Shown piece by piece: positions 26,895 through 43,249 of a stretch of 64,000 nt of DNA (within the stretch, counting starts at the first letter, position 1; each line of letters opens with the position of its first letter). The notes under the pieces are model-generated. The model did not search any database. It was not told where the DNA came from and saw nothing but the letters and a program-made list of their open reading frames with translations. This stretch comes from Methylotenera mobilis 13 (GTDB lineage: Bacteria; Pseudomonadota; Gammaproteobacteria; Burkholderiales; Methylophilaceae): contig NZ_KB913035.1 of NCBI RefSeq assembly GCF_000384255.1, positions 248,001 to 312,000 of the forward strand, given 5' to 3'. The position numbers and the translations under genes are program-made.

Positions 26895-29153
26895 TTACTT
26901 TTTAAATTTCTGTATTAACTTTTTAATGCCTTTACGACCAAACTTTCTTTTAAATGCCACTTTAAAGTCATATAAGTAAAATGAAAATTTAATACCTGGA
27001 CTTAGCTTTCTGCCAATGTTGGCTAAGTATAGGCCCATGAAGCGTTCGCGGCCTGCCCAGTGAAGTTTATTACACATTCTAGCTAAGTCTGACACACGTT
27101 GATTCATCGGTGTTGGATGCGTATAAAAACGTGCCCGAGCCGTATCAATCAGAGAGAATGATAATTGATTGTTATCTTGTAATTGCACTAAGACATTGCC
27201 GCCTGATAGGTCTCTGAAAAAAGCGCCAGTCTGATGCATGCGATGTAAGTATTGCGCAAGCTGTTGGTATACGTCAGCGGCGCGGATGGTGCTGTTTTTT
27301 CCAGAAAAATGAAACTCTTTATTCCCTTTTGCAAAGTGCACAAACATTTCGCCTACGGAGCAGTCTGCTTTGACGTAGTCGCAAATATAGAAATTCTGTT
27401 TAAGTGTCTTATCACCTTGTTGCTCGAAAAAAGCAACGGGATGCGCGGTGTTAATACCGCGTCTTAACAGCTCAACTGCTCCATTCCAGCTGCGTTTGGC
27501 TTTGCTAGGCTTGAATCTATCTAACAGTGCCTTATGCGGATACATTTTAACTGGTTGCTTGACGGTGACTTGCGTTTGCACGTTGCGTGGGTCTGGTAGC
27601 GCCCATATTGCATTACGAGCATGGCGCAAGGCGCTGGCTTTTTGTGGGCTAATCAGTTTGCTGGGGTGTAACTGCTCACCAATCAGCAAAGCCTCTTCGG
27701 CATTATGTGCCAATATCATGCCAAACCAATTATCTTGGCAGAATGGGTAATATTGCAGTGCTTGAATATGCGCGTGTATGGCTAAGTCTTTAGCCAGTGT
27801 GGCGGTGTCTTTAATAATCACTGTCTGATTTTTTGGCCAGCGGATATAAATGGGTGACTCGCATACGATATGAATTTTAGCGTTCAATAAATGACCGTCA
27901 CGGTGGATTATTTCGGCGGTATTGATATCTGAGGTGTCGTAAATGTCGTGCAGTAAGGCTACTTTTCCGTTAATCGTCCATAGTGCATGGATGTCATATG
28001 TATTAGTCTGAAAGTGATGAATTTCTAGCCCATTTGCACTTGATATTGCCTTGATATATTCAGCGCCTTGAATCATTGTTGCTACGGTTTTGATGGCATT
28101 AAAGCTGGCATGACGCCAGAAGTTGCTCTGCTTGCCATCTACGCTGGCATAGTGCGTAACACGCTCTAATGCCGGGTATTCTGCATCTGTTAGCCCGTCA
28201 TCGATTAAGCCTTCACGCTGACAGATAAATGCACCCCAAAAGGCTTGATCTAAGGCACCAGAAGCTGCGTTGAGCAGCATGTAGCGCGCCGCATAGTCGG
28301 CTTGTTTTTGTTCGCCATCAGGCAGTAAGCGTTGAATACGATAGATTGCCCAAAATGCCACTGGAGAAATAAAACGTTGGATGCCAAAGTCCTGACCAAC
28401 TTTTCTCAGTAAGCGTGCTTTTTTAATCAGATTAAACTTTAACGCGGTTGCCCAACGGTATTTCAATATGCGGTGATCGAAGCGCTCTGGTTCTGACACG
28501 CGCTCAGAAAATAGATTGTTGCTATGGGTATCTGGTAACTGTTGCTTGGCTTTAAGCAGGCTTAAGATGCCGATGTTATATATCGGCTCAAAGTCCGTTA
28601 CATTCGGGCCAGCCAGTTCGATACCATGTTGTTTGATGGTGGTGTAAGCAATATTCCAAGCGGCGAGAAAGCCATCAACGGTGTAACCTGCCCAACGTTT
28701 TCTATTGATGGTATTACCAATTTCCACACGTGCGACATGGCGTCCAAAACGATTGAGCACGTTATTTAAGAAGCTTTGCCAAGCTTCCTGTTCTGTCTTA
28801 CTTTCCATATTTCTTGCACGGCTAAATGGCTGTATCAGGTGCAAAGTGACATGAAACCCATCATTAATTAAGCGTTGCAGGAAACGTGCGTTAAAGCTTT
28901 CTAAATCGCCGTAGGTAAAGTCCAAGCGTACTTGGTTAATCCCTAACGCGTGTAACTCTGCAATGACATAATCATCCATCACTGGGTCAGCTGCAGATGC
29001 AACACAAACACCGATAAAGTTAGCTGGAACCGTATGACGCTCTGCTGGTAGGTGAGCATTTTTTAGTCTAAATTTACCACTTAGGATGTAGGCAAGCCCT
29101 TTTCTAATGATAGGCCATGTGAGCATGCTACGTTGTTTAATTGGGTTGTTCAT
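26895..29153 (-). CDS. Fusion of glycoside-hydrolase-like TIM barrel and lipopolysaccharide-kinase-like domain
   Basis: 752 residues. The N-terminal half (about 40-350) looks like a GH-A clan barrel (FIGVCVASAADP, INQVRLDFTYGDLESF, VEIGNTINRKRW with Glu144 near the acid/base position). The C-terminal ~200 residues look like a WaaP/Kdo-kinase-type protein kinase fold: hinge NFYICDYV, catalytic loop FFRDLSGGNVLV (Asp648, Asn653) and SLIDTARARF (Asp about 670). No signal peptide is obvious, so the kinase would face the cytoplasm. It follows the LtaS-like gene by 6 bp at the end of the operon. A role in modifying an envelope glycan is inferred; substrates are unknown. Confidence 0.7.
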   Translation of the reverse strand: MNNPIKQRSMLTWPIIRKGLAYILSGKFRLKNAHLPAERHTVPANFIGVCVASAADPVMDDYVIAELHALGINQVRLDFTYGDLESFNARFLQRLINDGFHVTLHLIQPFSRARNMESKTEQEAWQSFLNNVLNRFGRHVARVEIGNTINRKRWAGYTVDGFLAAWNIAYTTIKQHGIELAGPNVTDFEPIYNIGILSLLKAKQQLPDTHSNNLFSERVSEPERFDHRILKYRWATALKFNLIKKARLLRKVGQDFGIQRFISPVAFWAIYRIQRLLPDGEQKQADYAARYMLLNAASGALDQAFWGAFICQREGLIDDGLTDAEYPALERVTHYASVDGKQSNFWRHASFNAIKTVATMIQGAEYIKAISSANGLEIHHFQTNTYDIHALWTINGKVALLHDIYDTSDINTAEIIHRDGHLLNAKIHIVCESPIYIRWPKNQTVIIKDTATLAKDLAIHAHIQALQYYPFCQDNWFGMILAHNAEEALLIGEQLHPSKLISPQKASALRHARNAIWALPDPRNVQTQVTVKQPVKMYPHKALLDRFKPSKAKRSWNGAVELLRRGINTAHPVAFFEQQGDKTLKQNFYICDYVKADCSVGEMFVHFAKGNKEFHFSGKNSTIRAADVYQQLAQYLHRMHQTGAFFRDLSGGNVLVQLQDNNQLSFSLIDTARARFYTHPTPMNQRVSDLARMCNKLHWAGRERFMGLYLANIGRKLSPGIKFSFYLYDFKVAFKRKFGRKGIKKLIQKFKK

Positions 29154-29159
29154 TCAGGT

Positions 29160-31124
29160 TTACGGTAAATGGAAACGCTGTTCGTTGTATAAAAGATCAG
29201 GCAGCAATACGTTTGCTAAGGCGCGCTCTTCAAGCAGTTTTGCATTGGCTGGCGGTGGCACTTCGGCTAGTTTTTTGGTTTTAGCGTCATATAAGCCGTG
29301 TGCTGGCGATTTACCAGAGCGTAATACCACCACTTGCTTGCCTAGTTCACTCTCTTCCATCCAGCCATAATTCTCATTGTATTGCATCATGGCACGGCCT
29401 GGGCTATCAGGGGCAATACTGGATAAATCGCGCCCCGTCATGGGGTGCTGGCCGTGAATGCCCATCAATGAAAGCATTGTTACTGGTAAATCTAGTTGGC
29501 TGGCAAGCCCAGTATAGCGCTGTGGTTTGATATCTGCGCCTAGAATCAGAGCGGGAATATGAAAGCGTTCTATCGGCACTAAATCAGCACCACGTACGCG
29601 AATATCATGGTCGGCAACGATTAGGAAAACAGTATCTTGCCAATAGGCACTTTTTTGTGCTTTTTTGAAAAACTCGCCGATGGCGTAGTCTGCATATTTC
29701 ACTGCATTATTATCCGTGCTTTTGGGTTGCTCGTACAACTCAATGCGGCCATCAGGAAACTCGAACGGTGAATGGTTCGATGACGAGAATGCTAGCGTGA
29801 AAAATGGTTTACCCGCTTGGTGGTGTGCTAATAGTTGCTCATGGGTCTTGTTGAGTAAGTCCTCATCTGACACGCCCCAGCTACTTGTAAATACAGGATT
29901 TTTATAATCTTTTTGGTCAACAATATAATTAAACCCGTTACCCATGAAAAAGCTACGCATATTGTCAAAATGAGACTCTCCGCCATAGATAAACTCAGTG
30001 TGATAGCCTTGTTTTTCTAATAATGCAGCGATGCTGAAAAAGTTCTTTTGTGATTTTGATAGCTTAACCGTACTGTCGGCAGGTGTTGGCTGGAAGCCAG
30101 TGACCACAGCCTCAATACCACGCACAGAACGAGTGCCAGTTGCGTATAACTGCTCAAACCAGATGCCTTGTTCTTTTAGTTTCTCTAAGTTGGGTGTGAC
30201 AGGAACACCGCCTAAAGACTCTACAAAGGTAGCGCCTAAACTTTCTTGCAAAATAATCACCAGATTGAGCGGCTTTTTACCTTGATTGCTTGGATTAAGC
30301 GTGGTGAGTGTGGGAAGGTCTGTTTCTTTGGCACCAGTGATTTTAAAAATGTCTTCACGTGGCATTTTGCCGTAAATGTCGCTAGACTTGGTTTCTTTGA
30401 TAAGATTGTAAGTGGCATATACCACCGAGTAGCCAGAATTGAGCACTAGACTATTCACCATGCTGTCAGCCGTAATGGCAAACAGTGCAGGATTGGCAGG
30501 GCGATGGCCTAAGGTGGATCGGATACCAAACGCAGTTAATATAAAGATGAGTGGCCATACTAACCATAACTTTTTGTTAGACCAGTTGGGTTGCATGCCT
30601 AACCAAGGGCGCATAAACCCATGAACCAGCCAGCCAGCCAATGCCACCGCTGCTAATGCGGAGAAGATTTCAACCTTGAAGCCGCGCCATAACATACTGA
30701 ATACTTCGTTTGGGTATTTGAGGTATTCGACAAAGATTCGATTAGGGCGTACGTCATATTCTCCAATAAAACCTGGTGTTGCTGCTTCTAGAAATACTAA
30801 AAGTATGAGTGCAACAAACACCCAAACATAAGTCAATTTCTGCCAAAACTTAAATAGGCGCTGCGTAGCTAGAATGGGTGCGAGTAACAATGGCACCAAT
30901 GCAATCAGACATAGTTGAATGACGTCTACACGTACGCCTTGCAGCAAAATCTCAGTAAGTTTACCTGTACTAGCAACACGCTCGAATTTCCATAGCACTA
31001 AGCCTAAACGTGTGGCAGAAAGTATGACCAAGCCAAGTATTAACATCGCGATGAAAGGCGCAAACGGACCTAGTTTGGAGGAAAGCTTCCAGATAGAGAG
31101 ATGCAGTTTTCTGATTAAAGACAT
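29160..31124 (-). CDS. LTA synthase-like sulfatase-fold membrane transferase
   Basis: 654 residues. About five transmembrane segments occupy the first ~210 residues, then a periplasmic alkaline-phosphatase-like domain begins (LNLVIILQESLGATFVESLGG). The segment YATGTRSVRGIEAVVTG probably holds the Thr nucleophile, and VADHDIRVRG carries metal ligands. Relatives move phosphoglycerol or phosphoethanolamine from phospholipids onto glycans or lipids in the periplasm (LtaS, OpgB, EptA types). The Gram-negative background argues against lipoteichoic acid. It is co-transcribed with the lipid genes around it, which suggests a phospholipid head group donor. Confidence 0.85.
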   Translation of the reverse strand: MSLIRKLHLSIWKLSSKLGPFAPFIAMLILGLVILSATRLGLVLWKFERVASTGKLTEILLQGVRVDVIQLCLIALVPLLLAPILATQRLFKFWQKLTYVWVFVALILLVFLEAATPGFIGEYDVRPNRIFVEYLKYPNEVFSMLWRGFKVEIFSALAAVALAGWLVHGFMRPWLGMQPNWSNKKLWLVWPLIFILTAFGIRSTLGHRPANPALFAITADSMVNSLVLNSGYSVVYATYNLIKETKSSDIYGKMPREDIFKITGAKETDLPTLTTLNPSNQGKKPLNLVIILQESLGATFVESLGGVPVTPNLEKLKEQGIWFEQLYATGTRSVRGIEAVVTGFQPTPADSTVKLSKSQKNFFSIAALLEKQGYHTEFIYGGESHFDNMRSFFMGNGFNYIVDQKDYKNPVFTSSWGVSDEDLLNKTHEQLLAHHQAGKPFFTLAFSSSNHSPFEFPDGRIELYEQPKSTDNNAVKYADYAIGEFFKKAQKSAYWQDTVFLIVADHDIRVRGADLVPIERFHIPALILGADIKPQRYTGLASQLDLPVTMLSLMGIHGQHPMTGRDLSSIAPDSPGRAMMQYNENYGWMEESELGKQVVVLRSGKSPAHGLYDAKTKKLAEVPPPANAKLLEERALANVLLPDLLYNEQRFHLP

Positions 31125-31199
31125 GTACGTGTTAGTGATGAAAAATAGTTTTGCTATTATAAGGTTAAAGATATTTTTATGCCTGTTGTTTAGGTGTGT

Positions 31200-32549
31200 T
31201 TATGGCTTAGGTTTTAACCAAGCAATAAAGGACCGCAAATAAATAGGCTGCCGAATACATAAATAAATCATGATGATGACATTAAGCAGAGCTGTGACTA
31301 AAAATAGCTGCGGAATGTTCAATCCCATATTGAAAACTTGCACGGAAAATAGTGCTGAAATGACCATAAACAATGCGTTGAGAATATTATTGGCGGCAAT
31401 CACGCGAGATTGATGACTTTTTTCAGAGCGTGTTTGGATAAATGCATACAATGGCACGATATATAAACCGCCAAACACACCAATCAAGGCAATATCGGCA
31501 AGCAAGCGCCAGTAAGTGAAAATTAAATGTCCTTCAGCATCGTAGTGCATACCGATGAATGTAGCGTAATCGAGCAAAGCTTTATTGTTTAAGCTTTCAT
31601 AGATGCTGGTACTAGCAAAATATAAGTCGGCACCGAACAGTGTTAAGCCAGTAGCACCGAAAAGCACTAAGCCAAGCTCTACTTTTCCTTTGGATAGTTT
31701 CTCGCACATGAGCGAGCCGATGCCTATGCCCAATGAGAAAATAGAGAGTAATAAAATGAATAGGCTTTCATCACCATGTAATATGTTTTTTGCAAAGCTA
31801 GGGAATTGTGCGAGCAGTGTGGCGCCATAAAACCAAAACCAGGAGATGGCAATGATCGTTAGCCAAATAGCCTGATGTTGCCAGATAAACTTGATATTTC
31901 TGTAGGTTTCGGTGATTGGGTTCCAGTTAATCTTGAGTTTAGGTGCAACTGCAGGGGAGTTTGGTACGCCACAACTAGTCCAGTAGCCTAGCACTGCAAT
32001 CACTAGCACTGTGCTGCTAGTGAGTAGTGCGTGCTCACTTTGCATCGCAAGCCACGCACCAAGCACTTGTCCGAGTAAAATCGCAACAAAACTTCCCATT
32101 TCCACCATGCCATTGCCGCCGACGATTTCACTCTCTTTCAGGTGTTGTGGCAAATAAGCATATTTAACAGGCCCAAACAGTGTGGAGTGCATGCCCATCA
32201 TGAATAGCGCTGCTGCTAACAGCCAGATGTTGTGTAGAAAAAAACCAGCACTGGCAAACAGCATAATGCCAATTTCAAACACTTTTACTAAGCGGATGAT
32301 TTGGGATTTCTCGTATTTATCTGCCAGCTGCCCTGCAGTGGCCGAGAACAAGAAAAATGGCAGAATAAATAGACCCGGTAGTAGGGTGGCAAGCGTACTG
32401 CCGTCTATTGATGTTAGCCTCGCGGTGTGAAATGCCACCAAGGTGATGAGTGCGGTTTTAAAGACATTATCATTAAATGCGCCTAGGAACTGAGTAAAGA
32501 AAAATGGACGAAAACGCTTTTCTTGCATTAATTGAAACTGGTTGCTCAT
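31200..32549 (-). CDS. LplT-like lysophospholipid transporter (MFS)
   Basis: 449 residues with about 12 membrane segments. The start (FRPFFFTQFLGAFNDNVFKTALITL) is the signature of LplT and the MFS half of Aas-type fusions, which move lysophospholipids across the inner membrane for re-acylation. In many bacteria this protein is adjacent to, or fused with, the acyltransferase and acyl-ACP synthetase; both are present as separate genes here, upstream in the same operon. Substrate is assigned by family similarity and context. Confidence 0.83.
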   Translation of the reverse strand: MSNQFQLMQEKRFRPFFFTQFLGAFNDNVFKTALITLVAFHTARLTSIDGSTLATLLPGLFILPFFLFSATAGQLADKYEKSQIIRLVKVFEIGIMLFASAGFFLHNIWLLAAALFMMGMHSTLFGPVKYAYLPQHLKESEIVGGNGMVEMGSFVAILLGQVLGAWLAMQSEHALLTSSTVLVIAVLGYWTSCGVPNSPAVAPKLKINWNPITETYRNIKFIWQHQAIWLTIIAISWFWFYGATLLAQFPSFAKNILHGDESLFILLLSIFSLGIGIGSLMCEKLSKGKVELGLVLFGATGLTLFGADLYFASTSIYESLNNKALLDYATFIGMHYDAEGHLIFTYWRLLADIALIGVFGGLYIVPLYAFIQTRSEKSHQSRVIAANNILNALFMVISALFSVQVFNMGLNIPQLFLVTALLNVIIMIYLCIRQPIYLRSFIAWLKPKP

Positions 32550-32615
32550 GGGCTTGGCCTTTTGTTATTGGATTTATTTTGAATCTTTATTGGTTATAGA
32601 GAATATGTTGCCTAG

Positions 32616-33845
32616 CTATGCATTTGTCGTGGCATTATCAAAAAATGCTCTGGTTTCAAAAACTTTGCGACCAAAACTAGCGCCATTAAATTGGATGAGT
32701 CGCTTTACTGAAAAATCAAACATCAATGGGTTGTAATCGCGTAAGGTTTGTAAGAATAATAAGTATGACTCTTCCAATAACCCTGAGCGAAATAATTGTT
32801 TGGTGGAAACTAATGGCAGTATGCCTGGTAATGGATAGTCTGAGCCGTTGATTAAGCGGGCATGCCAATCTTGGCGTTGCAGTAGCGGTCTAATCACCCA
32901 AGCATGGTTAATTAAAGTAATGGCTGATATCTCACCGAATGCTAGCTTTGTATAGGCAGGCGTATCCATGATTCTTGTAAACAGCTCAAAACTTTTGATA
33001 GTTTTCCCGTGGTTATCCAAGTCCTCGTCATGGCCATCACTGGCGCAGTGTGCAAGGACCACACGCACCCCAGCATCCAGTGCGCGACGCATGTGCAGTG
33101 GGTTGCCAAAAGATTGGTTACCGCCCTGTACTGCACTTTCACGACCAGTATGGCTGATAATCGGCATGTTAAGTTCTGCTAGCTTTTGGTAAAACTTGTC
33201 ACACTTAGGTGAGCTTGGATCTATACCCATACCAGAAGGCAACCATTTAATTGCACGCGCGCCGTTAGCTTTTGCGCTTTCTAATGCATCAATCGCATCT
33301 GGCCGATAAGGATGGATGGATCCCACCCATTCAAAGTGTTGCGGATATTGTTTGGCAATGCTCGCAGCATAGCTGTCAGGAATGTGAAAGATAGAATGTG
33401 TTTTTTCTGGCTGGCCTTGTGCGTTATGCGTCCAGTCAAATGCAAATAACATGGTTTTGTAGCCAACAGGCATGTCAGCGGACAAATCTACCATGCGGGC
33501 GATGAAGGTTTCATCTTCGCGGCCGCTAGTAATGCAGCCGCCATTCATGTAGAAATCTTTTTGAATTTTCAAGATGGGGTGTGACCAGTTATCCATATCC
33601 GGGTTGTACCACACACCGCCGCCGTTATCTCCTGCGCCGATAATATGGGCATGGGTATCCCATACCTGCGCGGCATCTATATCCCCCCATATTGTCTGCA
33701 TAAGTGGATGCTGCTTTAATTCATCCGGTAAATGGCTGAAACATGGGTTGGTAAAGCCTGACTCCGGCCAATATCTCGCCCCACCAATCGTAAGGCCGCT
33801 GGCACCAATGGCTGATAGCCCAAGTAAAAATAGACGGCGGTCCAT
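32616..33845 (-). CDS. Exported amidohydrolase family protein
   Basis: 409 residues. A twin-arginine-like N-terminus (MDRRLFLLGLSAIGASGL) suggests Tat export of a folded metalloenzyme. The TIM-barrel amidohydrolase-2 pattern is visible: HxH in DTHAHIIGAG, SHTGRE, VLAHCASDG and the late Asp in NGSDYPLPG. Substrate is unknown. Its ATG lies directly beside the stop of the preceding gene, so the two are tightly linked. Confidence 0.8.
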   Translation of the reverse strand: MDRRLFLLGLSAIGASGLTIGGARYWPESGFTNPCFSHLPDELKQHPLMQTIWGDIDAAQVWDTHAHIIGAGDNGGGVWYNPDMDNWSHPILKIQKDFYMNGGCITSGREDETFIARMVDLSADMPVGYKTMLFAFDWTHNAQGQPEKTHSIFHIPDSYAASIAKQYPQHFEWVGSIHPYRPDAIDALESAKANGARAIKWLPSGMGIDPSSPKCDKFYQKLAELNMPIISHTGRESAVQGGNQSFGNPLHMRRALDAGVRVVLAHCASDGHDEDLDNHGKTIKSFELFTRIMDTPAYTKLAFGEISAITLINHAWVIRPLLQRQDWHARLINGSDYPLPGILPLVSTKQLFRSGLLEESYLLFLQTLRDYNPLMFDFSVKRLIQFNGASFGRKVFETRAFFDNATTNA

Positions 33846-33847
33846 GG

Positions 33848-35476
33848 TTAATTCTTATGAAATTTTCGGGAAATTTTTCGCACGCCTAGTAGCGTTAATA
33901 TCAACATGACTAACCATGCCATTAAGCCATAGTAGGCGGGGCGAACTGGCTCAGCGGGTGTGTTTTTGTCTTTTAAAGTGTCCGGAAAATGACGTGCGCC
34001 TACCGGGATAATTTTCCATTGCGACATATCCGCTGGGGTACGTGCAATATACTCATCCAAAGATGCAACGGGCGCTTGCCCCATTGCTCTAGAAGAAGGA
34101 AATTGCGGAATATGCACATAAATAATCGCTTCCAGGTCTTCTGCCAGCTGTTTCTCAAATGCAGTATTCGCCTGATTCTTAGCAATTCGACTCAATAGAT
34201 CATTACCTATCGTTTCAAAGGCTACAAAAGGATATAAGTTGGTTTGCTCTGCGCTCAGGTAATCGTATGCTTTGAGGCCACTTTCCAGGCTCATATCGCT
34301 CAACGATTTATAGGGAAGTGCTACAAAGGCTTTTGGTAAATTGGTTGCACCAAGCTTGGGTATACTCCAATCGAGTGATCGAAGCGTTTCTAAATTGATG
34401 CCTGCACAATTAACCCCAGCGTGACGGTATAAGAAATCTTGCCTGTAAAAATGCTGCATCACGCGATTGATTGCACTTTGGTAGGTGGCTGCACTGCGGT
34501 CATTTTTCAGTACCGCCACTAGCATATAGGATGGACGGTACCAAGACTGACCGCTGTTTAAGTCACCCTGATAGCTATCCATCGGTAAACTAGCGGCAAT
34601 AATGCCTTTTTCGCTCACGGAGCCTAGGTTGTAGAAGTTATTGACCAGCCAATCATGCCACTCACCCTGTGCACCGAAACGGCCGGTTGCCACTGCGAAG
34701 TGACCACCATGGGCTTCATCATCGTCACCCTGGGCCCCATTAAGTACAAAGCTCAATACAGGCTTATTTTGCAAGCTTGTTAGATTAGGATTTTTATACA
34801 AAATACGCGCAGAAAAAGGTGCTGATGCGCCACCATTTTGGTCACGTATTAAACTGGCAATCGTTTCCTGATCAGCAAGTGGTTTGTAGGGGATTTGATT
34901 TAAATCTAGGTTGTAATCTAATGGCCAAATACTGCGTGCAGTAAAATGCGTTTTATCTGCCGTGCCTCGCATGACTAGATTGCGACCAGCGAAATTCTGT
35001 TCACTAGCTTCGTTATAGTAAGACTGATTACTTTCGATTTTTGGTGTAATTGCTAGCTGGGTTTTGCTATTGTCACTTTCTAGCCGTTTTCCATCTTGAC
35101 TGAGTTTTCCCACTGCAACATGTGGTGAGCCTAACCATACCAATGGTGGCATTGCGTTAGTTGCCGATGGTTGGCTTGTAACCCATTGTTTGACGTCCTC
35201 TTGAGCGCTTAAGCTGGGATCAAAACTATGGGCATTGCTAAGTGGTATGGCAATGGTTTCCTGTTCGAAATACCACGATGCTTGCGGCGTGATAGCGCAA
35301 TTCTTACAAGCACCTTGGTTAAGTCGGAATTGATCGGCACGATAGAGACCTAGCAAATTATTTTCGTTTAATGCATGAACAAACTGAGGATCTGCCACAC
35401 TTGTTAAACTATAAATAGACGTGATAATCGATACGCCAATAGCGAATATTTTAGTTCTTGAATTATTATTTTTCAT
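33848..35476 (-). CDS. Exported single-span protein with His...Asn-Cys pattern, unknown function
   Basis: 542 residues: signal peptide (about 8-28, IGVSIITSIYSLTSVA), a large periplasmic domain, and one C-terminal membrane segment (AYYGLMAWLVMLILTLLGV) with a basic tail. I do not recognise a named family. Residues around His256-His259 (AHGGHFAVATGRFG) precede Cys357 (RHAGVNCAGINLETLR). This His-before-NC order is like the circularly permuted NlpC/P60 (LRAT-type) papain fold, some members of which transfer or hydrolyse acyl groups of lipids. It overlaps the Aas-like gene by 11 bp. A lipid- or amide-hydrolase role is hypothesis. Confidence 0.6.
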   Translation of the reverse strand: MKNNNSRTKIFAIGVSIITSIYSLTSVADPQFVHALNENNLLGLYRADQFRLNQGACKNCAITPQASWYFEQETIAIPLSNAHSFDPSLSAQEDVKQWVTSQPSATNAMPPLVWLGSPHVAVGKLSQDGKRLESDNSKTQLAITPKIESNQSYYNEASEQNFAGRNLVMRGTADKTHFTARSIWPLDYNLDLNQIPYKPLADQETIASLIRDQNGGASAPFSARILYKNPNLTSLQNKPVLSFVLNGAQGDDDEAHGGHFAVATGRFGAQGEWHDWLVNNFYNLGSVSEKGIIAASLPMDSYQGDLNSGQSWYRPSYMLVAVLKNDRSAATYQSAINRVMQHFYRQDFLYRHAGVNCAGINLETLRSLDWSIPKLGATNLPKAFVALPYKSLSDMSLESGLKAYDYLSAEQTNLYPFVAFETIGNDLLSRIAKNQANTAFEKQLAEDLEAIIYVHIPQFPSSRAMGQAPVASLDEYIARTPADMSQWKIIPVGARHFPDTLKDKNTPAEPVRPAYYGLMAWLVMLILTLLGVRKISRKFHKN

Positions 35477-37025
35477 TTTCTGCCATCTGTTTCAAAGTCA
35501 CATAGTCAGTTTTACCAGTGCCTAATAATGGCAGTGCATTCACACATATGATTTTGCGCGCAATCGCAAGCTCAGGGCTACCTAGGGTTTTGGCGCTAGC
35601 GCTGAGTTGCTCACGGTTAAGTGTGCTGTCAGTGGTGTAGAGGATGATATTCTCCCCGCGCTGTGCGTCTGGGCTAGTTGTGGCTGCATGTTGATGTTGC
35701 GGTGAGGCGTTGTTGGCGATGGACTCTACTGTTTCCAAAGAAACCATTTCGCCCGCGACTTTGGCAAAACGTTTGACGCGGCCTTTGATAAACACAAAGC
35801 CGTCTTCATCAATTTCAACAATGTCGCCAGTGTTATACCACTGGTCTTGTGGTGCTTGTATCACGCCTGGGTTGTCAAACAGGTAATAGCCACGCATGAC
35901 GTTGGGCCCACGCACTGAAAGCAAGTCACCGTGCTCAATGCCGGGGATGCTTTCTAGTTTAGATTCGAGGCTAGGCATCAGTGCGCCTACTGAGCCCAGT
36001 TTATTGGCCATCGGCGTATTAACGGCAAGCACAGGGGCGCACTCGGTGGCACCATAGCCTTCTAGGATACGGATGCCAAATTTATCTACCCAAGTTTTAC
36101 GAACTTCTTCGTTAAGCTTTTCTGCGCCGGCCACGACATAACGTAGTTTGTAAAAGTCATAAGGGTTGGCGAATTTTGCATAGTTGGCTAAGAAGGTACT
36201 GGTGCCAAATAGCACTGTGCAACCGCGGTCGTATATGACTTCAGGAATCACACGGTAATGTAAAGGTGATGGGTACACAAATAATTTACTCCCAGCGACT
36301 AAAGGCATGATGGCACCACAAGTAAAGCCGAAGGCGTGAAATAGCGGCAGCACCATCATGAATTTGTCCTGCATGGAAAAATCAATCACGGATTTAATCT
36401 GTGCGATATTCGCCAAGATGCTGGTGTGCGTATGCACCACGCCTTTGGGCTTGCCTTCAGAGCCTGAGGTAAACAGCACCACGGCAGGGTCATTCGATTT
36501 GCATTTGTCTACAGCTAACTTTGGTAGCCATAGTGCAAACCCCATCAGCCATAACTTATCCAGCCAGTTAAATTGTTTGGAGAGGTCTTCTAGATAAATG
36601 ATTTTAATGTTTTTTAAACCAGCGATGACTTCTTCCAACTTGGCGGTTTTAATAAACTCACGAGAGCTGATAATGGTTTTCACGGCTGCTGCGGTGCAGG
36701 CATTCTGTATGCCAGCACTACCTGCGGTGTAATTTAGCATGGCGGGCACTCTGGTAAAGGCGCTCAGACCGAATATCAGGCAAATGGTATTGGTGACATT
36801 TGGCATGAGCACGCCGATGTTTTCATGCTTGCTGCTGACTTTGCTGGCAAGTCGGCCTAATGCCAAACTCTTTTTCAATAAGTCGCCATAACTTTCTTCT
36901 ACCTGACGCATGTCTTCCACCAGCATAGTGCCTCGCCCATGGGTGGCAACGGCATCTAACAATGCACTAAACAAGGTGCTGATAGGTGCGGAGCTAAACA
37001 GCATATTCTGCATTTCACGGCGCAT
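35466..37025 (-). CDS. Aas-like acyl-[acyl carrier protein] synthetase (separate ligase domain)
   Basis: 519-residue adenylate-forming enzyme. Motifs are the P-loop-like LFTSGSEGKPKGVVHTH, the GYGATECAPVL core, YNTGDIVEIDEDGFV and the GRVKRFAKVAGEMVSLE hinge, which is close to the C-terminal half of E. coli Aas. It would activate fatty acids (to ACP) for re-acylation of lysophospholipid. In Aas this domain is fused to a PlsC-type acyltransferase; here that partner is the adjacent 178-residue gene. An AGGTG ribosome site precedes the first ATG. Confidence 0.88.
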   Translation of the reverse strand: MRREMQNMLFSSAPISTLFSALLDAVATHGRGTMLVEDMRQVEESYGDLLKKSLALGRLASKVSSKHENIGVLMPNVTNTICLIFGLSAFTRVPAMLNYTAGSAGIQNACTAAAVKTIISSREFIKTAKLEEVIAGLKNIKIIYLEDLSKQFNWLDKLWLMGFALWLPKLAVDKCKSNDPAVVLFTSGSEGKPKGVVHTHTSILANIAQIKSVIDFSMQDKFMMVLPLFHAFGFTCGAIMPLVAGSKLFVYPSPLHYRVIPEVIYDRGCTVLFGTSTFLANYAKFANPYDFYKLRYVVAGAEKLNEEVRKTWVDKFGIRILEGYGATECAPVLAVNTPMANKLGSVGALMPSLESKLESIPGIEHGDLLSVRGPNVMRGYYLFDNPGVIQAPQDQWYNTGDIVEIDEDGFVFIKGRVKRFAKVAGEMVSLETVESIANNASPQHQHAATTSPDAQRGENIILYTTDSTLNREQLSASAKTLGSPELAIARKIICVNALPLLGTGKTDYVTLKQMAENEK

Positions 37026-37052
37026 GGCATCACCTGCTAGGCGGCGGCGTGC

Positions 37053-37589
37053 TTAGGCAGTAGGTGCTTGTGGCATGCCAATGTGGCGTATAGGCAAGAT
37101 ACTGATGGTGACCTTGGGAAATAGTCTTCTTGGGTGGCTGCCGCGCAGGCGGCTAAAGTAAGAGCGGGCGGCACCGTCTATGCGTACCGGTAAAATCATG
37201 GCATCTGTTTTAGCTGCAACAAAACCCGGGCCGTCATATACCTTCATCAGTGAGCCAGTGAGCGTAATGCGCCCTTCGGGGAAAATCACCACAGGTTTGC
37301 CAGCCTCTAGCAGCTTGATCACCTTTTTCATGGCAAGTGGTGAGGTAGGGTCTACCGCCAGATATGGAGTCAGGCGTAATATTTGTCTAAAAAACCAATG
37401 GTTCAGTACGGTGGTATGCACAACAAATGTGGCGCGAATCGGCAAAAATAGGCCTAGCAGCAAACCATCTAAAAAGGATTCGTGGTTAGCAATAATTAAC
37501 AACTTACCTTGCTTGGGTAGGTTGGCTATCCCCATGACATCCACCCTGAAAATTACCCGGCAAATCAATTGTAATAGTGTTCCGATCAT
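37053..37589 (-). CDS. PlsC-type lysophospholipid acyltransferase (separate Aas N-domain)
   Basis: 178 residues. Acyltransferase motif I (NHESFLDGLLLG, H-x4-D) and motif III (FPEGRITLTGSLMKVYDG) are both visible, and the latter is nearly identical to Aas. It would transfer an acyl chain from acyl-ACP to lysophospholipid on the cytoplasmic face. Length equals one catalytic domain. It lies 27 bp upstream of the ligase gene and 18 bp downstream of the ArsR gene. Confidence 0.88.
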   Translation of the reverse strand: MIGTLLQLICRVIFRVDVMGIANLPKQGKLLIIANHESFLDGLLLGLFLPIRATFVVHTTVLNHWFFRQILRLTPYLAVDPTSPLAMKKVIKLLEAGKPVVIFPEGRITLTGSLMKVYDGPGFVAAKTDAMILPVRIDGAARSYFSRLRGSHPRRLFPKVTISILPIRHIGMPQAPTA

Positions 37590-37607
37590 TTTTTCTCCAG
37601 TAGTTAA

Positions 37608-37913
37608 TCAGGTTTCGTTTTGGATGTAATTGAGTACTTGTTGCAAAGCATTAGCAATCAGCGGGCTATTAATCCAGAAAAAGACTTCTTTTCCTATTTT
37701 CTCTGACGACAACACGCCAGCGCGGTGTAATACTTTTAGATGATGCGTCACTGCGGTGCGACTGAGTGTGGTGGTGGAAACAATTTGCAGAATGTTTAAT
37801 TTTTCACCTTTTTCAAAGGCAAGCAGAATCAGCTGCCGATGTTCATCACCTAGTGCGATGAAAATATCTGCAGTATTTTTAAAACTACTTGGAATTTCTG
37901 TGACTCGTTTCAT
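37608..37913 (-). CDS. ArsR-family winged-helix regulator
   Basis: 101 residues. The helix-turn-helix TTTLSRTAVTHHLKVLHRAGVL and wing (SEKIGKEVFFWINSP) are typical ArsR/SmtB. It has no cysteine, so a thiol metal site is excluded; it may sense a lipid or other small ligand. As the first gene of the lipid operon, with an inverted repeat over its start, it is a candidate autoregulator. Confidence 0.88.
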   Translation of the reverse strand: MKRVTEIPSSFKNTADIFIALGDEHRQLILLAFEKGEKLNILQIVSTTTLSRTAVTHHLKVLHRAGVLSSEKIGKEVFFWINSPLIANALQQVLNYIQNET

Positions 37914-37939
37914 AACTATATGATTAGTTATTTAGTTAT
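37912..37939 (-). promoter_or_regulatory. Candidate ArsR operator at the head of the lipid operon
   Basis: ATAACTA (37912-37918) and TAGTTAT (37925-37931) form a palindrome with a 6-bp spacer; TAGTTAT occurs again at 37933-37939. The palindrome overlaps the start codon of the ArsR gene, as expected for repression. Assignment is by position and symmetry only. Confidence 0.5.
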
Positions 37940-38310
37940 GTAAGTCAAGAAAATTTTGTTTGATATTTTATGGAAAGCACAAATGAATAGCAGAGTCTGT
38001 GAAGTACAGACTCACTAATGTATAACAGATTAGGTTGATAAGCAGTTTATATTAAGTATGTGTCACTGTATTCTTTGGCGCATGTCGAGCAGCAGTCTTT
38101 ATAGCGCAACACAGTTTTTGTTTGCCTAACTGTATCTAGTGAGCAGACAGAATATGTATTATTTACAACATATTAGTGAGATGTGATTGAGTCATTGTGA
38201 AAGTAATTTTTTTCATATAGTATGTGTCAAGATGATTAAGTCAAAGTTTGCTTACATCAATTTCATGCAAAATCAGGTAATTTAAATTTCAGCATTATAA
38301 AAACAACCTA
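37940..38310. other. Intergenic region between divergent lipid operon and RND locus
   Basis: About 370 bp, AT-rich, no supported gene or RNA. It must contain promoters for both flanking transcription units. I see no clear sigma-54 site and no strong hairpin. Confidence 0.5.
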
Positions 38311-38967: not shown

Positions 38968-40050
38968 ATGATCAATAAATTATTTGTTGTTTTGGGCCTA
39001 GTCGCGCTTTTGGGTAGCGGCTGCCATCACTCAGAAGAATCGAAAGAAGAAGCGCTAAAACTTGAGGTGACACACCCGTTTCGTAAACATACTTCGATTA
39101 CCAGAGAGCATGTCAGTCAGATTCATGCATTTAGGCATATTGAATTAAGAGCCTTTGAACGTGGGTACTTACAAGACATTTTTGTGGATGAAGGGCAGAT
39201 GGTGACCAAGGGTCAGCGCATGTTCAAAATCATGCCGAATTTGTATCAAGTCGATTTGCAGAAATCTAAAGCTGAAGCAGAGATGGTGCGTATTGAATAC
39301 CAAAACACTAAAGCCTTGAGTGATAAAAATATTGTTTCACCCAATGAGTTGTCACTGGCAAAAGCAAAGCTCGACAAGGCTGAGGCTGAGGTCAAACTTG
39401 CACAAACCCACCTAAATTTTACCGATATCAACGCGCCTTTCAGCGGCATTATGGACCATTTTAATGTGAGAAACGGTAGCTTAGTAGATGAGGGTGATTT
39501 GTTAACAACGCTTTCTGACATCAGCAAGATGTGGGTGTATTTCAATGTGCCTGAGTCTGAATACTTAGACTACAAGACCAGTAAGAATGATCAATCTCCA
39601 GTCAAGGTGAAGTTAAAAATGGCGAATGGGGAAGTATTTGACCAAGCGGGTGTGATTGAAACCATAGAAGCGGATTTTGATAATAAAACTGGCAATATTG
39701 AATTCAGAGCGGTTTTCCCAAACCCGAATCAACTGCTTAGGCATGGTGAGACTGGGAATATTTTAATCGATATCCCTTATAAAAATGCCTTAATCATTCC
39801 GCAGAAAGCTACTTTCGAAATACTCGACAAGACTTATGTGTACGTTGTGAACAAAGACAATAAGTTGGAGCAAAGGCTGATTACGATTGCTGCTGAGTTG
39901 CCACATGTGTTTATTGTGAAGAGCGGCTTAAAAGAAGATGACAAAGTCCTGTTGGAGGGTTTACGCAAAGTACATAACGGTCAAAAAATTGAAATTGATT
40001 TTAAGCAGCCAGAGCAAGTGCTTTCTCAATTAGAACTTCATGCTGAATAG
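38968..40050 (+). CDS. RND efflux periplasmic adaptor (membrane fusion lipoprotein)
   Basis: 360 residues. A lipoprotein signal (LLGSGC at residue 19) anchors it to the inner membrane. Then come the lipoyl half-motif (ERGYLQDIFVDEGQMVTKGQ), a short alpha-hairpin with heptads around 80-140, the second lipoyl half (INAPFSGIMDHFNVRNGSLV), a beta-barrel and a membrane-proximal domain. It links pump and outer-membrane channel. The next two genes encode those parts. Confidence 0.92.
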   Translation: MINKLFVVLGLVALLGSGCHHSEESKEEALKLEVTHPFRKHTSITREHVSQIHAFRHIELRAFERGYLQDIFVDEGQMVTKGQRMFKIMPNLYQVDLQKSKAEAEMVRIEYQNTKALSDKNIVSPNELSLAKAKLDKAEAEVKLAQTHLNFTDINAPFSGIMDHFNVRNGSLVDEGDLLTTLSDISKMWVYFNVPESEYLDYKTSKNDQSPVKVKLKMANGEVFDQAGVIETIEADFDNKTGNIEFRAVFPNPNQLLRHGETGNILIDIPYKNALIIPQKATFEILDKTYVYVVNKDNKLEQRLITIAAELPHVFIVKSGLKEDDKVLLEGLRKVHNGQKIEIDFKQPEQVLSQLELHAE

Positions 40051-40069
40051 TGAAAGAAGAGATTGAAAA

Positions 40070-43000
40070 ATGCTTAATATTTTTATAAAAAGACCAGTGA
40101 TGGCCATCGTGCTGTCGCTGATGATTGTGTTCTTGGGATTTTTATCCATTAGAACACTGCCAACTTCTCAGTTTCCTGATATTGCACCACCGCGGGTGAT
40201 TGTTTCTTTAGCATTTCCTGGTGCTAGTGCGGATGTGCTGGTGCAATCCTCTCTTATCACCATTGAACGTGCGATTAATGGTGTGCCAGGCATGAAATAT
40301 ATTATTTCAGATGCGACCAGTGCGGGTGAAGCCACAATACAAGTGATTTTTGCGCTGGGCACCGACCCGAATCAGGCCATGATTAACGTGAAAACGCGTT
40401 TAGATCAGGTCATGAGTCGGCTACCAGAACTAGTACAGCTTGAGGGCGTTGTGGTTGAGCGCGTACAGCCTAGTATGCTGATGTATATCAACTTGTTCAG
40501 TAAAGATAAAAATGCTGATGAGAAGTTTTTATTTAACTATGCCAACGTCAATGTGATTCCTGAGATTCAGCGCGTTAACGGTATTGCCAGTGCAAAGATT
40601 TTAGGTAGCCGCCAGTATGCGATGCGTATTTGGCTTAACCCAGACAGAATGCGGGCTTACAAGGTTTCGATTGATGAGGTGATGAAGGCGATTGGCGAGC
40701 AAAGTATTATTGGCCGCCCTGGCCGATTGGGGCAGAGCTCTGGCATTGCTGCACAGTCTAAAGAGTATGTGTTGGTATACAAGGGACGCTATAACAAGCC
40801 TGAGGAGTATGGTGACATCATCATCCGCGCTGATTCTGAAGGTGAAATACTGAAGTTGAAAGACTTAGCAAAAATAGAGCTAGGCAGTGAGTTTTTTGAT
40901 ATTTATTCCAACAAAGATGGTTACCCGTCTTCTGCGATTATTTTGAAACAGAACTATGGCAGCAATGCGAGTGAGGTGATTGACCAAGTTAAGGAGAAGA
41001 TGAAAGAGTTGGAGGGTTCGTTTCCAGCAGGCATGGAATATGAAATTGACTACGATGTTTCTAAATTCTTAGATGCCTCGATTGAAAAGGTGTTGCATAC
41101 CTTGGTTGAAGCATTTTTGTTGGTGGCATTAGTGGTGTTTATCTTTCTTGGTGATTGGCGCTCTACGCTGATTCCCATATTGGCTGTGCCAGTATCGTTA
41201 ATTGGTACTTTCTTTTGTATGCAGATGTTTGGCATTACGATTAATCTCATTACCCTATTTGCATTGGTCTTGGCGATTGGCATCGTGGTCGACAATGCGA
41301 TTGTGGTAGTAGAGGCGGTGCACGCCAAAATGGAGGAAGACGCAGATATTACGCCTTACAAAGCGACTCAAAAAGTACTAGGGGAAATAGGTGGTGCGAT
41401 TGTGGCCATTACGTTGGTGATGACGGCAGTGTTTGTACCAGTTGCCTTTATGACAGGCCCTGTCGGTGTTTTCTATAGGCAGTTTTCTATTACCATGGCG
41501 TCCTCGATTGTGATTTCTGGCGTAGTGGCGCTTTCTTTGACACCAGTACTTTGTGCCATGTTATTGAAAAACCATCATGGACATCCTAAAAGAAAAACAC
41601 CGATAGGTTACTTCATCGATATGTTTAATCGTTGGTTTGAGCGGCTAACAGGGCGCTACACCAACTTATTAAACAAAGTGGTTACGTTGCGAGCAGTGAC
41701 TATTCTGGTATTGGCTGGGTTTGCGTTTGGTACTTTTTACATTAACAAAACCTTACCAGCAGGCTTTATCCCTGGTGAAGACCAAGGCCAGATTTACGCC
41801 ATTATTCAAACGCCACCAGGCAGTACGCTAGAGGCTACCAATAAAGTAGCACGTGAACTGCAAAAAGAGGCCGAGAAAATTGAGGGGATTGCCTCGGTTT
41901 CTTCATTAGCTGGCTACGAGATTTTGACTGAAGGCCGTGGCTCCAATGCAGGTACATGTCTGATTAACCTTAAAGACTGGTCTGACCGCGATAAATCTGT
42001 GCATGAAATCATTGAAGAGCTGGAAGAAAAGACCAAGAACTTCGGCGCTGTAGTTGAGTTCTTTGAGCCACCTGCTGTGCCTGGGTATGGTGCGGCTTCT
42101 GGTCTGGCTTTACGTTTATTGGATAAAACTGATAGCACTGGTTACTATGAGTTTGACAAAATTAATCAGGAGTTCATGGCTGCTTTAGGTAAGCGAAAAG
42201 AGTTAACAGGTTTGTTTACTTTTTATGCTGCCAATTACCCACAATATGAGCTAGAAATCGATAATAAGGCTGCCATGCAAAAAGGGGTATCGATTGGTAA
42301 TGCGATGGAAAATCTCAATATTTTGATTGGTAGTACTTATGAGCAGGGTTTCATCCGCTTCAATAACTTCTTTAAAGTGTATACACAGGCCAGCCCTGAG
42401 TTCCGTCGATATCCAAGTGATATTTTGAATTACTACGTTAAAAACGATGATGGTGAAATGGTGCCGTATTCGTCTTTTATGAAGCTTAAGAAGCAGCAGG
42501 GTCCGAATGAGATTACTCGGTACAACTTATATAACTCAGCAACGATTCGTGCCACCCCTGCTAAAGGCTATACCACTGACGATGCAATAAAAGCTGTGCA
42601 GGAAGTAGCAACAGCAACGCTGCCGCATGGATATGACATTGGCTGGGAGGGTTTGTCTTTTGATGAAGCCAAACGAGGCAATGAAGCCGTGATTATTTTT
42701 GCCGTGGTGCTGGTGTTTGTTTACATGGTGTTAGCGGCACAGTACGAAAGCTTCCTGTTGCCACTTGCCGTGATTCTGTCATTGCCTGCTGGTATTTTTG
42801 GCACATTTCTATTACTCAAAACCTTAGGTCTAGCCAATGATATTTATGCGCAACTTGGGCTGGTCATGCTGGTTGGTTTGTTAGGCAAGAATGCAGTATT
42901 AATTGTGGAATTTGCCGTACAAAAACACGAGCAAGGGATGTCGGTAGCTGCGGCGGCGATAGAAGGTGCGAAAGCACGTTTCCGCCCTATTTTAATGACA

Positions 43001-43249
43001 TCGTTTGCATTTATTGCTGGGTTGATTCCGCTGGTGGTTGCAACTGGTGCAGGTGCAGTTGGCAACCGCACCATCGGTACCTCTGCGTTAGGAGGGATGC
43101 TATTTGGCACGGTATTTGGTGTGATTCTAATCCCTGGACTTTACTACATATTTGCAAAAATGGAAGAGGGTAAGTCATTGATTAAAAATGAAGACTTTGA
43201 GCCTTTAACCGAGTTGTATCACTACAATAGAGATGATAATGATGAATAA
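40070..43249 (+). CDS. RND multidrug efflux pump, HAE1 type
   Basis: 1059 residues. The FIKRPVMAIVLSLMIVFLG start, two six-helix membrane blocks and two periplasmic loops are typical of AcrB-like pumps. The proton-relay Asp pair appears in LAIGIVVDNAIVVVEA; LVMLVGLLGKNAVLIVEFA is the second relay helix. The pump segments IIGRPGRLGQ, VYKGRYNKPEEYG and ELGSEFFDIYSNKDG are like Bacteroidetes pumps in my memory, which may point to transfer. Substrate is unknown. It overlaps the outer-membrane factor gene by 17 bp. Confidence 0.93.
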   Translation: MLNIFIKRPVMAIVLSLMIVFLGFLSIRTLPTSQFPDIAPPRVIVSLAFPGASADVLVQSSLITIERAINGVPGMKYIISDATSAGEATIQVIFALGTDPNQAMINVKTRLDQVMSRLPELVQLEGVVVERVQPSMLMYINLFSKDKNADEKFLFNYANVNVIPEIQRVNGIASAKILGSRQYAMRIWLNPDRMRAYKVSIDEVMKAIGEQSIIGRPGRLGQSSGIAAQSKEYVLVYKGRYNKPEEYGDIIIRADSEGEILKLKDLAKIELGSEFFDIYSNKDGYPSSAIILKQNYGSNASEVIDQVKEKMKELEGSFPAGMEYEIDYDVSKFLDASIEKVLHTLVEAFLLVALVVFIFLGDWRSTLIPILAVPVSLIGTFFCMQMFGITINLITLFALVLAIGIVVDNAIVVVEAVHAKMEEDADITPYKATQKVLGEIGGAIVAITLVMTAVFVPVAFMTGPVGVFYRQFSITMASSIVISGVVALSLTPVLCAMLLKNHHGHPKRKTPIGYFIDMFNRWFERLTGRYTNLLNKVVTLRAVTILVLAGFAFGTFYINKTLPAGFIPGEDQGQIYAIIQTPPGSTLEATNKVARELQKEAEKIEGIASVSSLAGYEILTEGRGSNAGTCLINLKDWSDRDKSVHEIIEELEEKTKNFGAVVEFFEPPAVPGYGAASGLALRLLDKTDSTGYYEFDKINQEFMAALGKRKELTGLFTFYAANYPQYELEIDNKAAMQKGVSIGNAMENLNILIGSTYEQGFIRFNNFFKVYTQASPEFRRYPSDILNYYVKNDDGEMVPYSSFMKLKKQQGPNEITRYNLYNSATIRATPAKGYTTDDAIKAVQEVATATLPHGYDIGWEGLSFDEAKRGNEAVIIFAVVLVFVYMVLAAQYESFLLPLAVILSLPAGIFGTFLLLKTLGLANDIYAQLGLVMLVGLLGKNAVLIVEFAVQKHEQGMSVAAAAIEGAKARFRPILMTSFAFIAGLIPLVVATGAGAVGNRTIGTSALGGMLFGTVFGVILIPGLYYIFAKMEEGKSLIKNEDFEPLTELYHYNRDDNDE

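Follow-up and report, generated by a model that had tools for sequence, protein, structure and literature searches.

A predicted ArsR-controlled operon in Methylotenera mobilis 13 with a proposed role in envelope lysophospholipid handling

What could join genes for the import and reacylation of lysophospholipids to an exported amidohydrolase, a membrane phosphotransferase, a glycosidase/kinase fusion and a protein of no described family? The question is raised by a 64,000-nucleotide stretch of the Methylotenera mobilis 13 genome (contig NZ_KB913035.1, positions 248,001 to 312,000; hereafter the window), whose host genome is 2.80 Mb in one contig. In the open reading frame (ORF) listing of the window, eight ORFs, numbered g8 to g1 in the direction of reading, fill positions 26895-37913 of the minus strand, with junctions of 75 nt or less and one overlapping pair (Table 1). 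An earlier interpretation made from the letters alone (the sequence-only reading) had placed eight genes here, and all eight exist where it put them. Its annotations also hold at family level: an LplT-like major facilitator superfamily carrier, PlsC, an Aas-like ligase, Amidohydro_2, a sulfatase-fold LtaS/OpgB-like protein, a Kdo/WaaP-type kinase and an ArsR helix-turn-helix (HTH). As an explanation of the locus as a whole, we favour an ArsR-controlled operon that handles envelope lysophospholipids.

Promoter, operator and regulator

An inverted repeat, ATAACTA-N6-TAGTTAT, overlaps the -10 region and the start codon of arsR (g8) and is preceded by TTGACT. Conservation was measured in 31 arsR loci selected from the loci collected, many of them closely related. 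TTGAC was found at -35 to -40 from the arsR start in 31 of 31 loci; among 472 control starts at these loci, each the first ATG of another ORF of at least 150 aa, 4 had it. The operator repeat was better than mononucleotide shuffles at p<0.05 in 24 of the 31. At four loci (L031, L032, L033 and L044, from Dechloromonas, Azonexus and two others) neither arm is the same as in Methylophilaceae, and pairing is largely kept. The window genome holds a single exact copy of the repeat, and a genome search allowing one mismatch found the pattern no commoner than a reversed control. Because the -10 element is so close to the arsR start, the arsR message would be near-leaderless. These features predict that the eight genes form one unit behind one conserved, operon-specific promoter/operator.

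The g8 protein shares the ArsR-type HTH of ArsR/SmtB metalloregulators, with a PF01022 match above cut-off, but differs from them at the metal site. Cysteines are absent from 28 of 31 ArsR homologues and from g8 itself; a cysteine metal site is excluded for g8 because the protein contains no Cys. The PF01022 match and the promoter-like site before arsR agree with the earlier placing of the genes under an ArsR-type regulator. Anti-phage defence was considered as a role and rejected, as PADLOC matches only the HTH of ArsR.

Aas, LplT and a modular operon

By the established biochemistry of these families, lysophospholipid is carried inward by LplT and then reacylated by the PlsC and ligase parts of Aas. 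The window encodes the same transporter, PlsC and acyl-acyl carrier protein (acyl-ACP) ligase families as the Escherichia coli LplT/Aas system, and here too g3 and g6/g7 stand in one gene run, with g5 and g4 lying between. Unlike that of E. coli, the window LplT is of the Aas-fusion type (99 bits against PRK11195, the E. coli-type LplT model, whose cut-off of 297 is not reached). E. coli Aas is one polypeptide, whereas a stop separates PlsC from ligase in the window genome, and the window genes are part of a longer operon that also includes g5, g4 and the ArsR regulator. The E. coli-type transporter is found in some congeners. In G017 it stands in for the g3-type LplT (496.6 bits, cut-off 297), so that the function is kept and not the gene.

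The sequence-only reading had taken Aas to be split into genuinely separate genes. This part of it fails. The PlsC frame stops at a single in-frame TAA in the interdomain linker, and nine codons further on an ATG opens the ligase frame; the corresponding stretch is open in the relative L019. Aas ligase was found in 21 of the 37 genus genomes searched, the window genome counted, and its frame is 528 aa in the window versus 710-735 aa in all 20 other congeners with a match, in which Aas is fused. The three-gene layout is therefore a local nonsense change in the linker and not an old arrangement. Evolution of Aas as separate genes was accordingly rejected, since one in-frame linker stop suffices as an explanation. 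The g6 protein is the sole ligase match at E<=1e-60 in the window genome. PlsC and AMP-ligase motifs are intact (invariant columns in 35 and 38 rows), including H36, D41, E105 and R107 of g7, invariant in 35 rows; we take these motif residues to have their customary meaning. In Methylophilus rhizosphaerae (L063:6474-8593) the Aas ligase match falls in two frames, and either Aas is interrupted there too or the sequence is in error.

Site contents were tabulated for 25 Methylotenera genomes. The gene run adjoins mltA in 23 of these; for G031 and G034 the available stretch ends earlier. Eight genus genomes carry g5, all of them among the Aas-ligase bearers. The set g5, g4, LplT, g2 and g1 occurs in the window, G014 and G017, and the set C92, g4, DUF2339, DUF3999, LplT and g5 in G003, G013, G019 and G028. 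An M28 peptidase, C92, DUF2145 or an alpha/beta hydrolase appear in varied sets in G001, G010, G035 and G036. Aas, LplT, g2 and g1 alone are found in G011, G012 and G018, and g2 and g1 alone in G016, G024 and G030; G026 has LplT as well, at a contig end, with no Aas found in the assembly. The core of the operon is ArsR, PlsC-ligase (Aas) and LplT; the operon is modular, and the window shows one of its arrangements. Both the lysolipid theme and the co-regulation proposed earlier are upheld: lipid-repair families stand behind one conserved promoter/operator, and the gene set, when sought in other genomes, recurs, which removes the objection that the genes might not co-occur elsewhere.

Other genes were also seen within the run. 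In G010 (L023:5720-9217) LplT and g5 are separated by genes for a fatty-acid hydroxylase, for DUF6999 and for a DarB-like ketosynthase that has a haem-oxygenase-like domain. A type I HsdM/HsdS-like ORF pair, identified by eye, lies between g4 and LplT in the Methylotenera metagenome-assembled genome WB-IL-03 (L053:2848-6173).

The operons of relatives also carry Arc3A/Arc3B-type genes (DUF2339/DUF3999). In the available part of PMC8926400, Arc3 (Arc3A) is reported to stop lysophospholipid accumulation in Pseudomonas aeruginosa, where no gene is more critical than arc3A in resisting a phospholipase toxin, regeneration of phosphatidylethanolamine from lysophosphatidylethanolamine requires Aas, aas genes adjoin arc3 genes in many bacteria, and the mechanism of Arc3 was stated as unknown in 2022. 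A 2025 screen confirmed arc3A and aas against lipase effectors, according to the part of PMC12663445 available, and the corresponding part of PMC11416262 describes a complex of LplT and Aas. The arc3 defence of P. aeruginosa and the operons of relatives have Arc3A and Arc3B genes in common, along with the reported aas-arc3 neighbourhood. The window operon differs in lacking both: DUF2339 has no match in the window genome, while 14 of 36 other congeners have one, two of the 14 only partial. Regulation is by Gac/Rsm in P. aeruginosa and by ArsR here, and the word "amidohydrolase" does not occur in the main text of PMC8926400, nor are g5-like genes noted in the part of it available. The sequence-only reading knew of no described system with this set. 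That calls for qualification, as aas next to arc3 is already in print and Arc3A/Arc3B-type genes occur in relatives.

Does the remainder of the operon belong to the same process? A single pathway had been suggested, in which g5 or the amidohydrolase makes periplasmic lysolipid, g2 decorates a glycan with head groups, g1 processes or phosphorylates that glycan, and LplT/Aas recycle the lipid. In its favour, all of these genes lie behind one promoter in the window, G014 and G017, g2 has intact sulfatase-fold catalytic residues and g1 has a WaaP-like kinase. The g2 protein shares its fold family and catalytic residues with LtaS/OpgB and VP1736 (3lxq); T331, E294, D505 and H506 are invariant in 24 of 24 rows, and we presume the threonine to be the nucleophile and the others metal ligands. 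It differs from these proteins in being paired with g1 and in falling under the equivalog cut-offs listed in NCBIfam (best score 81.4 of 572 bits required). The C-terminus of g1 matches the Kdo family PF06293 (33.3 bits, cut-off 21.3), and the WaaP/RfaP equivalog score is not reached (25.8 versus 170). Unlike the WaaP/RfaP heptose kinase, the g1 kinase is fused to a glycosidase-type barrel: a model of middling confidence, with a predicted local distance difference test (pLDDT) score below 50 in parts of the barrel, shows a beta/alpha barrel like that of the GH39-like glycoside hydrolases of clan GH-A followed by a WaaP-like kinase. Comparison of models therefore supports the glycosidase/kinase fusion described earlier.

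Other observations argue against the single pathway. Head-group transfer of the LtaS/OpgB kind leaves diacylglycerol and not lysophospholipid. By eye, the barrel appears to lack its acid/base Glu: the strand-4 motif EIGNTIN has T148, invariant in 22 rows, at what would be the place of the GH-A acid/base residue. Moreover, g2-g1 stand at the mltA site without Aas or LplT in three genomes (G016, G024 and G030) and away from that site in G025, and the pair is missing from four of eight g5-bearing congeners, which keep Aas, LplT and g5. Because the pair travels without the rest, we treat it as separate; g2-g1 behaves as a separable module and probably modifies an envelope glycan independently. The earlier proposal of head-group transfer to a glycan within one pathway is thus not sustained, and we judge the single pathway quite unlikely.

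Table 1. Features of the operon and its promoter region (window coordinates)
Feature	Coordinates	Strand	Remarks
Promoter/operator	37911..37948	-	-35 TTGACT at 37948-37943; inverted repeat at 37912-37931
g8, ArsR-family regulator, zero Cys	37608..37913	-	PF01022 30.9 bits, cut-off 22
g7, PlsC half of Aas	37053..37589	-	PF01553; PRK08043 residues 1-178; in-frame TAA at end 37053-37055
g6, acyl-ACP ligase half of Aas	35466..37025	-	PF00501; PRK08043 717 bits over residues 193-714
g5, family without description; candidate permuted NlpC/P60-like thiol enzyme (H259, C357, Y350, N280)	33848..35476	-	
g4, amidohydrolase (Amidohydro_2), Tat-like signal	32616..33845	-	PF04909
g3, LplT-type lysophospholipid transporter; such carriers are elsewhere fused to PlsC/Aas	31200..32549	-	438 bits, PRK06814 residues 2-431
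g2, LtaS/OpgB-like membrane phosphotransferase (predicted)	29160..31124	-	PF00884; closest solved relative VP1736, 3lxq, E 1.5e-144
g1, glycosidase-type (GH39-like) barrel and WaaP-like kinase fusion	26895..29153	-	T148 at the presumed GH-A acid/base Glu place

The candidate metal ligands of g4 (H65, H67, H178, H232 and D336) are invariant in 24 of 24 rows. A motif like that of the twin-arginine translocation (Tat) pathway was found in 17 of these by pattern and in one more (L029) by eye, leaving six without; g4 would be an exported metal hydrolase. About 1 kb upstream of the operon a divergent resistance-nodulation-division (RND)-type efflux pair occupies 38968-43249 of the window (membrane-fusion and inner-membrane protein, by eye). 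ORFs similar to those of this flank are present in G014, and GlnK-like genes in several other congeners, again by eye.

The g5 family

A single scan of the collected genomes with alignment A1 returned 51 g5 loci, of which 47, by a reading of their record titles, come from a betaproteobacterial group. At 36 of the 51 loci LplT is found on the g5 strand no more than 6.5 kb away; in 32 of these 36, by row count, the distance is within 200 nt. The Aas ligase is within 6.5 kb at 21 loci, g4 at 15, DUF2339 at 14 and g1 at 12. Proximity of g5 and LplT extends beyond Methylophilaceae to Dechloromonas, Azonexus, Methyloversatilis and others; among 14 genomes with an unlinked g5, 12 carry LplT elsewhere. 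An ornithine/diaminopimelate-decarboxylase-like gene stands between ArsR and g5 in Methyloversatilis (L036:8577-9908), and ORFs of a decarboxylase-like cluster, c32, lie upstream of g5 in L037, L039, L041, L045 and L073.

The history of g5 differs from that of its neighbours. In a quick tree of 47 g5 proteins, for which the tested group was named after an earlier result had been seen and some rows were flagged for odd letter make-up, the window type grouped with proteins of Dechloromonas, Methyloversatilis and other betaproteobacteria (group of 20, Shimodaira-Hasegawa-like approximate likelihood ratio test, SH-aLRT, 98). The remaining Methylotenera/Methylophilus proteins fell elsewhere, and a single clade was rejected (approximately unbiased, AU, p 2.6e-12). 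The nearest named relatives of the window g5 are from Methylotenera; its identity is 44% to the G013 type and 52-54% to L031, L032, L033 and L044. For g4 and the ligase the closest sequences are those of congeners (70% and 66-92%, versus 46% and 60% to L031). By these sequence comparisons the Methylophilaceae operons contain two separate g5 lineages. The tree and the identities suggest that g5 entered, or was exchanged in, an otherwise inherited operon. Its position differs among operons, either before g4 or after LplT, and entry at different positions argues for a functional tie.

These data bear on a second alternative, that the site is a genomic hotspot where unrelated envelope genes gather next to mltA, joined by the convenience of a shared promoter and not by any pathway. 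Widely varying contents at this one site across 25 genomes would be expected of a hotspot, as would genes for a fatty-acid hydroxylase, a DarB-like synthase, an M28 peptidase and an alpha/beta hydrolase, and the restriction-modification-like pair seen by eye in L053. A hotspot does not account for g5-LplT proximity outside Methylophilaceae or for the involvement of two g5 lineages, and Arc3A/Arc3B, Aas and LplT have one published theme in the available part of PMC8926400. We consider a mere hotspot improbable.

What kind of enzyme might g5 be? As the sequence-only reading had it, the protein is unrecognised: no Pfam or NCBIfam match was obtained at E<=0.001, and 43 of 43 family members lack a Pfam match. 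A signal-peptide-like N-terminus is followed by a large domain and a C-terminal helix at 513-541, by eye a membrane anchor. H259 and C357 are invariant in 47 of 47 usable rows, His before Cys, and a tyrosine (Y350) stands seven residues ahead of C357 in 46 of 47. In a confident model H259 opens a strand and C357 opens a helix, which is consistent with permuted NlpC/P60 enzymes (LRAT, HRASLS, YiiX, DUF4105, TseH, Tox-Act1 and LnsA). The g5 protein has in common with these the His-before-Cys order, the Tyr before Cys and a context of lipid genes. LRAT Tyr154/Cys161, named in the title of a cited reference, have a spacing equal to that of Tyr and Cys in g5, and by analogy Y350 may be the counterpart of the LRAT Tyr. 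Unlike these enzymes g5 has a long N-terminal region and a C-terminal anchor. Taken together, these features make a periplasmic lipid-active Cys enzyme plausible.

Some observations weigh against this reading or its link to LplT. No sequence match of g5 to the permuted families was found, and the protein matches them weakly in structure; in the fold search its best VIA match was TseH, with weak support. Among 300 genomes drawn evenly from the order, LplT was present in 126 and g5 in 12, with g5 in pieces in one of the 12 and carrying a stop in another; the two occurred together in only seven of the 12. Genome-level co-occurrence was therefore set aside as uninformative; it is proximity that constitutes evidence, and in two of the seven besides the window genome (G584 and G678) g5 and LplT are again neighbours by coordinates. 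The g5 of L126 (G610) has an internal TGA, and that of L129/L130 (G446) is in two pieces; both are possibly decaying copies.

Several other identities were tried. A comparison of g5 with the C92 set by hhalign gave a probability of 0.1%. On this profile comparison we rejected g5 as a recognisable copy of the C92 protein that related operons encode. A substitute lipoprotein N-acyltransferase is unneeded, although the activity is not excluded, as the genome has a normal Lnt (327.8 bits, cut-off 132.9); Lnb_N/DUF4105 has no match in the window genome. Viral carriage was dropped after a search of viral_contigs with six exact peptide patterns confirmed no relative. Distant relatives occur in Francisella-type genomes (L026:8626-10050, L027:9118-10530 and L078), by eye near an SPFH/stomatin-like gene; the L026 and L027 rows retain the His, but the Cys of the NCAG motif is missing from both.

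That g5 is a cell-wall or peptide amidase of the canonical NlpC/P60 type, co-regulated by chance, is very unlikely: canonical enzymes do hydrolyse peptidoglycan, and TseH, of a permuted group described as lipid-targeting, has also been proposed as an endopeptidase, but the His of g5 precedes its Cys, a permuted order reported to bear a hydrophobic, lipid-specific pocket, and its neighbours are lipid genes.

Proposed function

At the level of the operon, lysophospholipid repair or remodelling is the function that we consider likely. LplT would import lysophospholipid, and the PlsC and ligase halves of Aas would reacylate it. Beside LplT, a periplasm-facing g5 anchored in the inner membrane would take fatty-acyl chains off phospholipids or lysophospholipids, or transfer them; it would either supply the deacylation step in a cycle of remodelling or be a transacylase that detoxifies in the periplasm. 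In relatives the operon also has Arc3A/Arc3B, a C92 (YiiX-like) enzyme or both, and g2/g1 may be present or absent. The specific chemistry of g5, that of an acyl-removing or acyl-transferring thiol enzyme of the permuted NlpC/P60 (LRAT/TseH) type, is put forward tentatively, as somewhat more likely to be wrong than right.

A bolder version, which we regard as unlikely, makes g5 the founder of a new family, LRAT-like thiol transacylases of the periplasm that are anchored in the inner membrane and complete a Lands-type cycle with Aas and Arc3A under a lipid-sensing ArsR. If it were true, g5 would need neither ATP nor acyl-ACP to shift acyl chains from phospholipid to lysophospholipid or back, and in doing so would feed LplT or relieve it; the cysteine-free ArsR repressor would sense a lipid-derived signal and switch the cycle on.

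What is new here is g5, together with the dedicated ArsR and its operator; the operon itself belongs with LplT/Aas and arc3. The regulator and its defined operator could serve as a reporter of the inducing signal. In cultivable methylotrophs, the operon offers an undescribed family found repeatedly beside lysophospholipid machinery, which bears on the way in which bacteria rid the periplasmic side of lysophospholipids and on how Arc3A works.

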